From NCBI GenBank assembly GCA_020718925.1, contig DYRC01000007.1, forward strand, positions 1 through 32,673: 32,673 nt of DNA. The letters run 5' to 3'. This document shows positions 11,350-27,037 of this stretch, piece after piece. Source of the stretch: Desulfonema limicola. Its GTDB lineage: Bacteria > Desulfobacterota > Desulfobacteria > Desulfobacterales > DYRC01. Each line of letters begins with the position of its first letter. Position 1 is the first letter of the stretch. Position numbers and translations under genes: made by a program. Under the pieces are notes generated by a model that was not told where the DNA came from, made no database searches, and worked only from the letters and a program-made list of their open reading frames with translations.

Positions 11350-11490
11350 GTTCTCTCCGAAATTTTTAAAGTATCATTGACTTAGGATTTCATACGTATT
11401 CTTTCTGATTAATCTTATATATTATTCCTAATCTGATCGGATGTAAATAGTTTAAAAAACTTTGTAAAAATGTTACTGTAACTCCTTCTG

Positions 11491-11528
11491 AGATAAGCCT
11501 CTGCTCAAAATGCGGAGGTCTATTTTTT
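11491..11528 (+). terminator. Rho-independent-like terminator, repeat copy A (degenerate)
   Basis: ATAAGCCTCtgctcaaaatgcgGAGGTCTATTTTTT; related to copies at 12053 and 13401. Confidence 0.55.
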
Positions 11529-11563
11529 AAACTCAAAAATTTGATATAATACAAAAAAACAAC

Positions 11564-11578
11564 CCACAAATTTTGTAG
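11564..11578. promoter_or_regulatory. Palindrome CCACAAATTTTGTAG, candidate upstream activator site (copy A)
   Basis: 7-bp arms around a single T; the same element lies at 12173 with near-identical spacing to the sigma-54 promoter. Confidence 0.5.
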
Positions 11579-11678: not shown

Positions 11679-11694
11679 TGGCATTGAATGTGCA
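11679..11694 (+). promoter_or_regulatory. Candidate sigma-54 promoter TGGCATTGAATGTGCA (copy A)
   Basis: GG-N10-GC spacing and match to consensus TGGCACRNNNNTTGCW; about 50 nt upstream of the small ORF. Confidence 0.65.
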
Positions 11695-11744
11695 TATAAA
11701 TATGGATAAGAAGAAATAAAAAAATCACATTTCGGAGGTGGCTT

Positions 11745-11924
11745 ATGAATATGACATTGAAAATTGCATCATTGTTTATCGTATTCTTTCTGATGGTCTC
11801 ATCGTTTGCGTTTGCTTCTTTTAACAATCATGCTATGATGTCTGAGGCTGCTTCTATGATATTGATAGGTATCGGACTGATGAGTATGGGCGGATTTTTA
11901 AGAGGAACGATAGGCAGACGTTAA
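11745..11924 (+). CDS. 59-aa small secreted/membrane peptide, PEP-CTERM-like tail (copy A)
   Basis: MNMTLKIASLFIVFFLMVSSFAFASFNNHAMMSEAASMILIGIGLMSMGGFLRGTIGRR*; strong RBS ttCGGAGGTGgctt; paralogue 608 bp downstream with mostly synonymous differences. Confidence 0.8.
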   Translation: MNMTLKIASLFIVFFLMVSSFAFASFNNHAMMSEAASMILIGIGLMSMGGFLRGTIGRR

Positions 11925-12026
11925 ACAATAATGTCCCTAGCATCACTCTCCAACGCAGCCACGTCTTGTACTATCAACGATATGGGATTAGAATTTAAAA
12001 AAACTTCGTAAAATTAAGTGATATAA

Positions 12027-12044
12027 GGTTACCCCCCTGTAACC
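12027..12044. repeat. Inverted repeat GGTTACCCCCCTGTAACC, copy B
   Basis: Same element follows the PEP-CTERM gene at 13374..13391. Confidence 0.7.
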
Positions 12045-12052
12045 ACCTCCTA

Positions 12053-12090
12053 AAATAAGCCTCTGCTGAAAAGCGGGGGCTTATTTTTTT
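12053..12090 (+). terminator. Rho-independent terminator, repeat copy B
   Basis: AAATAAGCC...GGCTTATTT stem followed by a T-tract. Confidence 0.75.
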
Positions 12091-12172
12091 CGTCTGCCCG
12101 CGCAAAATCGTGCGAAGTTTGTTTTCTCGGAAATAATCAAACCTGAAAAATTGAGATAAACTAAAAAACAAC

Positions 12173-12187
12173 CTACAAATTTTGTAG
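12173..12187. promoter_or_regulatory. Palindrome CTACAAATTTTGTAG, candidate upstream activator site (copy B)
   Basis: Perfect 7-bp arms with a central T, about 107 bp upstream of the sigma-54 element. Confidence 0.5.
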
Positions 12188-12286
12188 ATTATGAACTTTG
12201 GCGTGATAATTATATCCCGCAAATAATAATTTAATTGTCTGATTATATAATACTTTTCATATAAACAATAATTTTATTATCAGCTT

Positions 12287-12302
12287 TGGCATTGAATGTG
12301 CA
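12287..12302 (+). promoter_or_regulatory. Candidate sigma-54 promoter TGGCATTGAATGTGCA (copy B)
   Basis: Identical 16-mer to copy A; GG-N10-GC. Confidence 0.65.
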
Positions 12303-12352
12303 TATAAAAATAGGCAAGAAGTGATACAAAAATCACATTTCGGAGGTGGCGT

Positions 12353-12532
12353 ATGAATATGACATTGAAAATTGCATCTTTGTTTATAATATTTTTTCTG
12401 ATGGTTTCATCGTTTGCTTTTGCTTCTTTTAATAATCCTGCCATGATGTCTGAGTCTGCGTCTATGATATTGATAGGTATCGGGCTGATGAGTATGGGCG
12501 GATTTTTAAGGGGATCGATAGGCAGACGTTAA
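12353..12532 (+). CDS. 59-aa small secreted/membrane peptide, PEP-CTERM-like tail (copy B)
   Basis: MNMTLKIASLFIIFFLMVSSFAFASFNNPAMMSESASMILIGIGLMSMGGFLRGSIGRR*; RBS CGGAGGTGG. Confidence 0.8.
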   Translation: MNMTLKIASLFIIFFLMVSSFAFASFNNPAMMSESASMILIGIGLMSMGGFLRGSIGRR

Positions 12533-12588: not shown

Positions 12589-13365
12589 ATGAACAGAAAT
12601 TTGATGAGAACTTTGGCTTTGGCAGTGGCAGCAGCGGTATTATTTTTAGCACCGCTGAACGGGTATGCGGATTCGCTGAGTTATGTCAGCTCTATCGGAG
12701 CTGCCGGACAGACCGTCAGTATGGTATCTAAGGATGATGCAGGCGCAGAGCATACCTATAACGGCACGGCATCGAATTTCAACGTCAAAGTTATAGATGA
12801 TGGCAATCTGATAGAAAATCCCGATAATCCGGATACGGATTGGTTCACGGCATTCTGTGTTGATCCGTTTCAGTATGCAGGAACCGGAACTGTCGAACTT
12901 GTAGCTCCCAGCGCAGTACAAGGCGGATTACAGGCAGCATGGCTGTTTGAAAATTATTATAAAAATTCTCCTACCACTACGACCGTAGCAGCTCTGCAAG
13001 TGGCTCTGTGGGAAGTGGTTGTTGACTATGACAAAGAATACAATCTGAATACCGGAGATTTTTACGTTACCAAAATTAACAAAGTAGGTGCTCCGTCTGC
13101 AACCGTAACAAATACGACATGGAGTTTGGCAGACACCATGCTTGCCGATTTACAGCAGAATTTCAATGCCAAAGATTTGGATTATATGTACAGAATCGCA
13201 CAAACCGGCTACAAGCAGGATTTGATTGTCCGATTGTATGATCCGCCGGTAGCAGATCCGGCAGATTCGGGTCCGGCAGCAGGAACTCCCGAACCGGCAA
13301 CCGTGATTCTGATGGGACTCGGATTGATCGGACTCGCAGGATTTAAAAAATTTCGTAAGAATTAA
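12589..13365 (+). CDS. PEP-CTERM sorting-domain protein with candidate thioester (TQXA-like) domain
   Basis: Signal peptide; single Cys in FTAFCVDPFQ; AALQVALWEVV; C-terminal TPEPATVILMGLGLIGLAGFKKFRKN. Confidence 0.9.
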   Translation: MNRNLMRTLALAVAAAVLFLAPLNGYADSLSYVSSIGAAGQTVSMVSKDDAGAEHTYNGTASNFNVKVIDDGNLIENPDNPDTDWFTAFCVDPFQYAGTGTVELVAPSAVQGGLQAAWLFENYYKNSPTTTTVAALQVALWEVVVDYDKEYNLNTGDFYVTKINKVGAPSATVTNTTWSLADTMLADLQQNFNAKDLDYMYRIAQTGYKQDLIVRLYDPPVADPADSGPAAGTPEPATVILMGLGLIGLAGFKKFRKN

Positions 13366-13391: not shown

Positions 13392-13400
13392 TCCTCCTAA

Positions 13401-13437
13401 ATAAGCCTCTGCTGATAATGCGGAGGCTTATTTTTTT
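13401..13437 (+). terminator. Rho-independent terminator after PEP-CTERM gene, copy C
   Basis: ATAAGCCTCtgctgataatgcgGAGGCTTAT followed by T-tract. Confidence 0.85.
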
Positions 13438-17041: not shown

Positions 17042-18016
17042 TTATACGACAAAAATCAGGACGAGTGCGATCACCATCCCATATATTCCTGTTGATTCGG
17101 TAACTGCCTGTCCGACCAGCATGGTCCGGGTAATTACCGCAGTAACATCCTCATTTCTTGCCATCGCATCCACAGCTTTCTGCCCGACGTATCCTTCACC
17201 GATACCGGGTCCTATGGCTGCAAATCCCATACAGATGCCTGCTGCCAAAAGTGCTGCTGCCGGTGCAATCGCCGGTGAGTCAGGGACGCCCTTGAACAGC
17301 AGAATAAAACTGATCAGCAGCCCATAGACTGCCGTTGTCTGACTTACCGCCTGCCCCAGAAGCATGATATTGGTCAGAGCGGTGCTTCGCGTAGGCTGCC
17401 GGGCAATGCCTTCGCACCCTGCCTGCGCTACCAGTCCTCCGCCCAGACTGGGACCGATAGACCCTAATCCTGCGGAAAGCCCCGCGCCCACAAGTGCTGC
17501 AAATGTAGGCAATAGCGGCTGTTGTGAAAAATCCGTGAACAACAAAATAAATGACACCACCATTGAAAAAATAGAAGGTGTCTGGCATACGGCTGAACCG
17601 ATCAGCATGTTTGTTGTCAACCGCTTGCCGATTCCGGGCTGACGGGAAATGCCGATACACGCCGCGCCTGTCGGAAAGCCTGATCCGATACCGGAACCGA
17701 TTGCGCCAAGTCCCATACATATTCCCGCTGACAGCAGCACCGCTACCATCACGTAAGAATCTGTCGGGAATTTGCTGAACAATAAAAGCATTGCAATGAC
17801 CAGCGCAAAAATCGCCGCAGATTCCGCAATAGCTTGCCCCACCAGCATGGCTTTGAAAATTTCGCCTGCTGATTTCGGATTGCGGGATATGGCGCTGTTT
17901 GCACACGCGGCTGAATATCCTTCTCCCACCGCCGCACCGATTGCCCCTACTCCCATGGCAATACCGCCGCCCACAAATGCGGCAACACGAACCCAAGTTT
18001 GAATGTCTGATGCCAT
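17042..18016 (-). CDS. Four-fold fused ATP synthase c subunit (8 TM)
   Basis: Four consecutive c-type hairpins of about 80 aa in one uninterrupted 324-aa ORF. Confidence 0.9.
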   Translation of the reverse strand: MASDIQTWVRVAAFVGGGIAMGVGAIGAAVGEGYSAACANSAISRNPKSAGEIFKAMLVGQAIAESAAIFALVIAMLLLFSKFPTDSYVMVAVLLSAGICMGLGAIGSGIGSGFPTGAACIGISRQPGIGKRLTTNMLIGSAVCQTPSIFSMVVSFILLFTDFSQQPLLPTFAALVGAGLSAGLGSIGPSLGGGLVAQAGCEGIARQPTRSTALTNIMLLGQAVSQTTAVYGLLISFILLFKGVPDSPAIAPAAALLAAGICMGFAAIGPGIGEGYVGQKAVDAMARNEDVTAVITRTMLVGQAVTESTGIYGMVIALVLIFVV

Positions 18017-25024: not shown

Positions 25025-27037
25025 TCAAACCATCACCCGCCCGACCAACGCCGAAATCTCATCCGCCAACACAATTTCCATGCCTTCTTTCACTTCCGGT
25101 TCCAGCGCACTGATTTCCGATTCATTGCGTTTGGGAAAAACAACGGTTGTGATTCCGGCACGCTGCGCTCCCAGAATTTTTTCCCGAATACCGCTCACCG
25201 CCAAAATACGCCCGCTCAACGTGATTTCTCCGGTAATGGCAATATCCCGGCGCGCCGATTTTCGGGTCAGCAAGGAGATGAGCGATAACGCAATGGTTAC
25301 GCCCGCAGAAGGTCCGTCTTTGGGAATCGCACCGGATGGAATATGGATATGAATATCACGCCCTTTGAAAAAATCCGGATCAATTTCAAACTTTTCGGCA
25401 TGACTTCGGATATAGCTTAACGCAGTCTGAGCAGATTCGCGCAGCACATCGCCCATAGAACCGGTTAAAATCAGTTGCTGAGAACCGTTCATCATGGTTG
25501 ATTCAATAAAAATGATTTCTCCGCCCACATCTGTCCACACCAGCCCCGTCGTAACGCCAATCTGATGATCGCGGTTTGCAATTTCATGGGCAAATTTTCC
25601 GGGACCTAAGAGCGTTTCAACCATTGAGGTATCTATCTGAACCGTTGCTGAATTTTGCGAACCTAAAGAAAGCCGGGCAAGTTTTCTGCACACATTGGCG
25701 ATTTCCCGCTCCAGATTTCTGAGTCCGGCTTCACGGGTATAATTTCGGATGACATGCAGAATCGCATCATCGCCAAATTCCTGTTGGGCAGAAGACAAGC
25801 CGTTTGCCCTGATCTGGCGGGGAATCAGATAATTTCGGGCAATTTCTTTTTTCTCGCGTTCGGTATAGCCTGCAAAATTGATGACTTCAAGCCGATCCAG
25901 CAACGGACCCGGCAGGCGTTCAACCGCATTTGCAGTGGCAATGAACATCACGCCGGAAAGATCAAAAGGAATATCCAAATAATGGTCATTAAAGTGGGTA
26001 TTCTGTTCAGGATCGAGAATTTCAAGCAGGACTGACGCGGGATCCCCCCTGAAATCCTGACCGATTTTGTCAATTTCATCCAGCATGAACACCGGATTTC
26101 TGTATCCGATCCGCTTGAGTTCATTGATAATCCGCCCGGACATTGCGCCGACATAAGTCCTGCGATGTCCGCGAAGTTCGGCTTCATCCCGAAGCCCTGC
26201 CATAGAAAGCCGCACAAATTTACGCTCCAAAGCGTCTGCAATCGCCCGTCCGATGGATGTTTTGCCGGTTCCCGGAGGTCCTGCGAAACACAGCACCGGG
26301 CTTTTCGTCATCTGAAGATGTTTTTTCTTTTCCTGAATCTGACGCACCACTGCCCGCAATTCATCCAACTGAATCGGCTTGGACAGATAATGCGCCGCGC
26401 CTTTTTTCAGCGCGTCCACTGCGGAATTGACCGTAGCAAAACCGGTAACCATCACGGTTTCGGTATGCGGCGCGACTTTTCTGACAGATTCAAGCAGTTG
26501 AAGACCGTCCATTTTTTCCATTTTCAGATCGGTAAGAATGAGATCAAACTCTTCTGCTTTCAGTTTTTCCAAAGCATCTATGCCGTTATGAGCAGTTCTG
26601 ACCTGATACCCTTCTTTTTTCAGCACATATTCCATGTTGGTTCGGGCAATATCTTCATCATCCACCACCAGAATATGAAATGCCCTGAGGCTGAACAATG
26701 TCCGCACCGCAAGATATTCCAGAATCCGCTCCTTGATATGCTTTAAGCCGTAATGCTCTGATTCCAGAATTTTTTCCGCCCGCTTCAAGTCCAGATTGTC
26801 ATCTGTAAAACGGTTCCACGGAAGGGAAAGAACAAGCTCGATATATGTCAATCCGATGGCATATTCGGGACTTAGCGGATCGCTTTTGACAAGCCGATCC
26901 CATTCTTTCATCAGCAAGCCGCTTACAGACTCGGACAATTTGGCTTTTTCGATTCCGGTTTTAAGTTCCTCAAGTTCCTGATCCGTCTGGGGAACTTCAG
27001 CGGCTTTGGGTTTTTCTGCTTTTCTGCCGAATAACAT
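25025..27037 (-). CDS. Lon-like ATP-dependent protease with inserted response-regulator receiver domain
   Basis: Receiver HILVVDDEDIARTN...FDLILTDLKMEKMDG...SKP; AAA+ FAGPPGTGKTS; Lon catalytic PKDGPSAGVTIA and GIREKILGAQRAGI. Confidence 0.93.
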   Translation of the reverse strand: MLFGRKAEKPKAAEVPQTDQELEELKTGIEKAKLSESVSGLLMKEWDRLVKSDPLSPEYAIGLTYIELVLSLPWNRFTDDNLDLKRAEKILESEHYGLKHIKERILEYLAVRTLFSLRAFHILVVDDEDIARTNMEYVLKKEGYQVRTAHNGIDALEKLKAEEFDLILTDLKMEKMDGLQLLESVRKVAPHTETVMVTGFATVNSAVDALKKGAAHYLSKPIQLDELRAVVRQIQEKKKHLQMTKSPVLCFAGPPGTGKTSIGRAIADALERKFVRLSMAGLRDEAELRGHRRTYVGAMSGRIINELKRIGYRNPVFMLDEIDKIGQDFRGDPASVLLEILDPEQNTHFNDHYLDIPFDLSGVMFIATANAVERLPGPLLDRLEVINFAGYTEREKKEIARNYLIPRQIRANGLSSAQQEFGDDAILHVIRNYTREAGLRNLEREIANVCRKLARLSLGSQNSATVQIDTSMVETLLGPGKFAHEIANRDHQIGVTTGLVWTDVGGEIIFIESTMMNGSQQLILTGSMGDVLRESAQTALSYIRSHAEKFEIDPDFFKGRDIHIHIPSGAIPKDGPSAGVTIALSLISLLTRKSARRDIAITGEITLSGRILAVSGIREKILGAQRAGITTVVFPKRNESEISALEPEVKEGMEIVLADEISALVGRVMV

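Follow-up and report, generated by a model that had tools for sequence, protein, structure and literature searches.

Miniature genes in Desulfobacterales with the anatomy of PEP-CTERM tails, possible substrates of an exosortase-type system

PEP-CTERM sorting has so far been described through larger passenger proteins, and to our knowledge the biochemistry of exosortases has been little worked out. The tripartite logic of its tail, in which a motif is followed by a hydrophobic helix and then by basic residues, is shared with the LPXTG/sortase, GlyGly-CTERM/rhombosortase and MYXO-CTERM/myxosortase systems. Haft 2006 (PMC1569441) describes the PEP-CTERM tail together with exosortase and PrsK/PrsR/PrsT, and reports a sigma-54 promoter element for 99 of the 167 PEP-CTERM genes of proteobacteria, located 5' of the gene at a mean of 71 nt from the start. 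In Aquincola (PMC9850573), the RpoN-dependent promoter of pepA was studied experimentally and has TGGCAC as its -24 and GC as its -12 element.

We analysed a 32,673-nt stretch of DNA from Desulfonema limicola (the window) that carries two very small genes of related anatomy, referred to here as minis. Their predicted signal peptide, Glu-containing motif, membrane helix and basic extreme C-terminus resemble those of the PEP-CTERM/exosortase system (EpsH; TIGR02595/PF07589 with PF09721), as do their sigma-54 promoter and the presence of exosortase and PrsK in the same genome. In contrast to PEP-CTERM proteins, the window minis lack a passenger domain, their mature part being about 8 residues long, carry S-E-S/A in place of P-E-P, and score below the HMM cut-offs, and some of their relatives occur in genomes with no detectable exosortase. 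With PepA, the flocculation PEP-CTERM protein of Aquincola (NF033554), they have the sigma-54 promoter class and the tail in common; PepA is a full-size secreted protein (PMC9850573), whereas the minis have the tail part only. The tail of one relative, L076, matches positions 225-260 of NF033554. Unlike the LPXTG, GlyGly-CTERM and MYXO-CTERM systems, the window minis contain neither LPXTG nor a Cys motif and belong to a Gram-negative host with an exosortase; their match to LPXTG_anchor was at chance level.

Mini gene 1 (11745..11924, + strand) and mini gene 2 (12353..12532, + strand) were identified by reading open frames. Each encodes 59 aa between an ATG start and a TAA stop, the second being 93% identical to the first, and they stand in tandem with a start-to-start distance of 608 nt, as the initial annotation had indicated. 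Mini 1 has a predicted signal peptide at residues 1-24, with the cut between AFA and S, followed by SFNNHAMM, SEA, a hydrophobic helix and RGTIGRR; in mini 2 the corresponding parts are SFNNPAMM, SES, the helix and RGSIGRR. The hydrophobic N-terminal segment and the AFA site were recognized by inspection and hydropathy, which rises again over approximately residues 35-52, with basic residues at 53 and 58-59. The motif retains its Glu while both prolines of PEP are gone, in agreement with the earlier reading of SEA and SES at the place of PEP, with the helix and basic end behind them. Against a cut-off of 20.7 bits for PF07589, the window minis scored 9.7 and 6.9 bits; TIGR02595 gave 10.4 bits for mini 2 (P0002) against a cut-off of 16, and mini 1 (P0001) was not among the matches listed.

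The coding sequences of the two minis differ at 14 nt, distributed 3/1/10 over codon positions 1/2/3, with ten synonymous and four non-synonymous changes (V/I, H/P, A/S and T/S). These recomputed counts are those first reported. The NG86 dN/dS ratio is 0.09, and four or fewer non-synonymous changes among 14 would arise under neutrality with a probability of 1e-4, which bears out the original suggestion of purifying selection on the protein.

The repeat had been described as a pair of ORFs, and this account fell short in extent, since the promoter region and the terminator are duplicated as well; approximately 300 nt, upstream region included, are 91% identical between the two units. A sigma-54-type -24/-12 promoter of identical sequence, TGGCATTGAATGTGCA (GG-N10-GC), lies 50 nt 5' of the ATG of both mini 1 (11679..11694, +) and mini 2 (12287..12302, +), and a GGAGG ribosome-binding site lies 6 nt before each start (11734..11738 and 12342..12346, +). 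The near-palindrome CCACAAATTTTGTAG (11564..11578) 5' of promoter 1 and the palindrome CTACAAATTTTGTAG (12173..12187) 5' of promoter 2 differ by one base and are putative activator sites. A Gibbs search for an activator motif 5' of the promoters yielded 8.3 bits, compared to 7.4-7.9 bits for shuffled sequence, with no carry-over to the full-length genes.

A full-size PEP-CTERM protein of 258 aa with a TPEPATVILMGLGLIGLAGFKKFRKN tail (TIGR02595, 24.4 bits; PF07589, 26.9 bits) is encoded 56 nt 3' of mini 2, at 12589..13365 (+). The two genes are probably co-transcribed, and a terminator at 13399..13433 (+) closes the unit. It is one of three related terminators, the others lying 5' of unit 1 and after mini 1, and each of these first two is preceded by sequence that can be aligned to the 3'-terminal codons of the intact PEP-CTERM gene. 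Both appear to be PEP-CTERM gene-end remnants with their terminators, at 11451..11531 (+), 5' of unit 1, and at 11990..12093 (+), between mini 1 and unit 2. From the remnants and related terminators at both units, we propose that the locus descends from a tandem array whose repeating unit ran from promoter through mini and PEP-CTERM gene to terminator, and that unit 1 has lost its large gene and kept its mini intact. The initial annotation had mentioned neither the sigma-54 promoters nor the duplicated terminator, the gene-end remnants, the PEP-CTERM gene just 3' of mini 2 or a third mini that the same genome carries elsewhere.

Several other genes of the window merit description. The 258-aa protein resembles a thioester-domain (TED) adhesin in its FCVDPFQ and LQVALWEV motifs, with a weak match to Pfam TED (15.3 bits, under the cut-off of 22); its structure, predicted without an alignment, had a pLDDT of 34, a very low confidence that makes the model uninformative. 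At 17042-18016 (-) the sequence reads as a gene for a 324-aa ATP synthase c subunit with seemingly four fused hairpins, in an operon that appears to encode an atypical ATPase of N-ATPase-like arrangement. At 25025-27037 (-), a 670-aa Lon-like protease, likewise read from sequence, has an apparent response-regulator receiver domain inserted ahead of its AAA part.

When 85,488 genomes were scanned with mini 2 alone, no close relative came up, so profiles were needed; A2 likewise proved too distant in sequence for such a scan. A direct protein search of 99 genomes from the same order returned three small-ORF homologues amid chance matches and ordinary PEP-CTERM tails. A profile built from these three recovered many more minis, and further loci were then read. 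Profile searching, which the initial annotation had proposed for short ORFs, and the reading of these loci led to 42 intact, non-identical minis in about 35 genomes of this order (Desulfosarcina and its relatives), and the absence of homologues that it had named as evidence against its reading was not what we found; a spread over so many genomes shows that the window pair is no product of chance. In 398 genomes drawn from the phylum as a whole, a strict threshold left only one full-length mini outside the order (L165), which suggests that the family is concentrated there. Among the relatives, L060 (MNRIFKVITLFIIFSVMISSAAAAAFTDTQPVFSEAASLIMLGIGLISLGCFMRDNFNIGK) comes closest to the window minis. 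One subgroup is that of Desulfosarcina, and a search with its alignment led to named strains, D. alkanivorans PL12 and D. cetonica among them.

The minis are 54-88 aa long (median 62, n=42), and the motif follows the predicted signal-peptidase site after a median of 13 residues. Each of the 42 combines a predicted signal peptide and a short mature stretch with an (S/P)E(P/S/A)-type motif, which is followed by a hydrophobic helix and then a basic end, with a basic residue close to the C-terminus in every case. The motif Glu is invariant in an alignment of 25 members; the list of 42 was collected with a pattern that contained this Glu, and its count there is not independent. The motifs are PEP (17), SEP (16), PES (3), SEA (2), LEP (2), SES (1) and NEP (1). 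Ser therefore occupies the first motif position in 19 of the 42 minis, compared to none of the 57 tails of full-length PEP-CTERM proteins at these loci, all of which have Pro; the lone S-tail among the full-length rows was the L043 mini, its frame having been extended upstream, and was excluded. When subgroups rather than sequences are counted, by our reading the SEx motif would represent about eight separate lineages, and Ser for Pro at this position may mark a distinct recognition signal.

Two further loci are of note for their arrangement. The third mini of the window's genome, with a TPEPA motif (L122:7709-8641, G000:C54), ends just 5' of a gene for a 243-aa secreted protein that has no PEP-CTERM tail, and the two could possibly be a separate sorting tail and its passenger. 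At L144, positions 5430 and 6357, two nearby minis of 54 and 56 aa are near-identical in signal peptide and tail, and their mature stretches differ (MPSITV versus DFGLPTPV).

We then asked whether the minis behave as genes. The dN/dS ratio was 0.06-0.43 in every mini pair with unsaturated dS, so the comparison across homologues that had been suggested from the outset revealed no neutral pattern. The mature stretch changes faster than the other parts in many pairs, and the tail is often the most conserved; Desulfosarcina is an exception, its mature stretch being conserved too (DF[IV]G..x.LP). Sigma-54 sites, defined by a GG-N10-GC score of at least 10 of 12, were found upstream of 26 of 42 minis and in 4 of 147 control intergenic regions from the same loci (P=5e-17, an optimistic value because related minis are not independent). 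The other 16 minis have no site at this threshold, and the sites vary between subgroups in sequence and distance. Synteny across species is kept in five subgroups, groups B-F; group B minis follow aat and precede genes for a receiver and a sigma-54 activator, and group C minis lie about 270 nt 3' of an rlmN-like gene. By the sequence evidence of dN/dS, promoter enrichment and conserved synteny, the minis are genes. In group B, all five genomes with downstream sequence (L061, L062, L064, L071 and L072) have on the same strand a stand-alone receiver gene and then a receiver-less sigma-54 activator gene. A role of the minis as precursors of radical-SAM-modified peptides was rejected because the conserved radical-SAM neighbour in Desulfosarcina is an RlmN-like housekeeping enzyme.

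These data also bear on two rival explanations. The apparent gene-end remnants in the window, and a second PEP tail with an in-frame stop after the mini in G048, are what would be expected if minis were decaying full-size PEP-CTERM genes whose middle part was lost. However, their frames are open, dN/dS is low, strong ribosome-binding sites and promoters are retained, and synteny extends across species, so decay is very improbable. Minis might instead be leader ORFs controlling a downstream PEP-CTERM gene in cis, with little activity of the peptide as such. Mini 2 sits close to such a gene in the same apparent transcription unit, the L028 and L079 minis lie just 5' of a PEP-CTERM gene or remnant, and the third mini of the window's genome ends just ahead of its secreted-protein gene. 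This arrangement does not account for mini 1, which has its own terminator and no intact downstream gene yet is under equal coding selection, nor for the majority of homologues, which stand alone, and selection acts on the protein up to its far C-terminus. We consider a leader function improbable.

Type I toxin peptides are small, hydrophobic and found in tandem copies, and toxin-like peptides had been offered as an alternative in the initial annotation. The tandem arrangement of small hydrophobic protein genes with long untranslated upstream regions would be compatible with this idea, but unlike such toxins the minis have a predicted AxA-type signal peptide, homology to sorting tails and sigma-54 promoters. 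The stretch that was scanned has a single antisense promoter-like site, which lies 5' of the unit (11447-11419), sigma-70-type sites there were no more numerous than expected by chance, and an Rfam search of the mini locus gave no match. The toxin alternative gained little support, and we judge it highly improbable.

In our assessment, chances are about even that the window minis are miniature substrates of a PEP-CTERM/exosortase-type system. Some minis bear canonical VPEPAS tails, and one member, L076, passes TIGR02595 with 26.6 bits against the cut-off of 16; by sequence, such members are a bridge between minis and PEP-CTERM proteins. The window's genome encodes an exosortase (PF09721, E = 4.7e-73, G000:C386), a PrsK over the cut-off (320 bits) and seven PEP-CTERM proteins over the cut-off. 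Exosortase (E<=0.001) was detected in 19 of 30 genomes that carry minis or short forms resembling them, compared to 7 of 30 with no profile match. Neither PF09721 nor TIGR04178 detected one in the near-complete genomes G155, G156 and G193, which have minis or PEP-CTERM tails, nor did TIGR04178, the one profile applied there, in the near-complete, mini-bearing G017, and exosortase is therefore not always present with minis. G155 is rated 100% complete and is PrsK-positive; beyond the window's genome, PrsK searches scored up to 24 candidates per genome, so that negatives say little. Either the exosortase-negative genomes with minis have an unrecognised enzyme or their minis need none. The original proposal of exosortase mini-substrates or accessory peptides is strengthened by the PEP-motif homologues, L076, exosortase with PrsK, the sigma-54 promoters and purifying selection, and weakened by the scores of the window copies under the PEP-CTERM cut-offs and by near-complete mini genomes with no detectable exosortase.

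As miniature substrates, the minis would be transcribed from the sigma-54 promoter, probably with other PEP-CTERM genes under PrsK/PrsR. They would be exported by Sec and cleaved by signal peptidase after AFA, with the C-terminal tail retaining them in the inner membrane. An exosortase-type enzyme could then cut near the S-E-S/A (P-E-P) motif, and a peptide of approximately 8-15 residues would be set free or joined to exopolysaccharide. The processing and function outlined here are predicted from sequence, and the fast-changing mature stretch does not favour one conserved peptide ligand.

We also considered that a mini may act uncleaved, as a membrane decoy, brake or adaptor whose sorting-like tail occupies exosortase or another partner during PEP-CTERM expression. 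A tail that is often the best conserved part next to a least conserved mature stretch would fit this role, as would the first-position Ser seen in minis and not in full-length tails, and the position of group B minis 5' of genes for a receiver and a sigma-54 activator. Since minis are also kept in several near-complete genomes with no detectable exosortase, we retain an intact regulator as a tentative alternative, rather unlikely overall. Normal PEP/PES tails are, however, found in almost half of the minis, the AxA end of the signal peptide is kept, and in Desulfosarcina the mature stretch is conserved as well. Beyond substrate status, a bolder proposal is that the minis form a passenger-less, RpoN-controlled 'SEP-CTERM' class in which signal peptidase and exosortase cuts yield an extracellular peptide of 8-15 residues, acting as a signal or linked to exopolysaccharide. 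Because the mature stretch is often least conserved, Desulfosarcina excepted, we regard this proposal as unlikely and keep the intact regulator beside it.

In the open literature on PEP-CTERM, we found no title or abstract describing such minis, and individual PEP-motif members may well carry automatic PEP-CTERM annotation. The family contributes small proteins that escape both length cut-offs and the thresholds of curated HMMs, and members are present in named strains with sequenced genomes, Desulfosarcina alkanivorans PL12 and D. cetonica for example. A conserved family made up almost entirely of a sorting signal would supply a minimal natural exosortase substrate, and it raises the question of why cells produce a sorted product of about 10 residues. 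If the 'SEP-CTERM' proposal is true, the product would be an exosortase-made peptide signal or an exopolysaccharide-linked peptide in Gram-negative bacteria.
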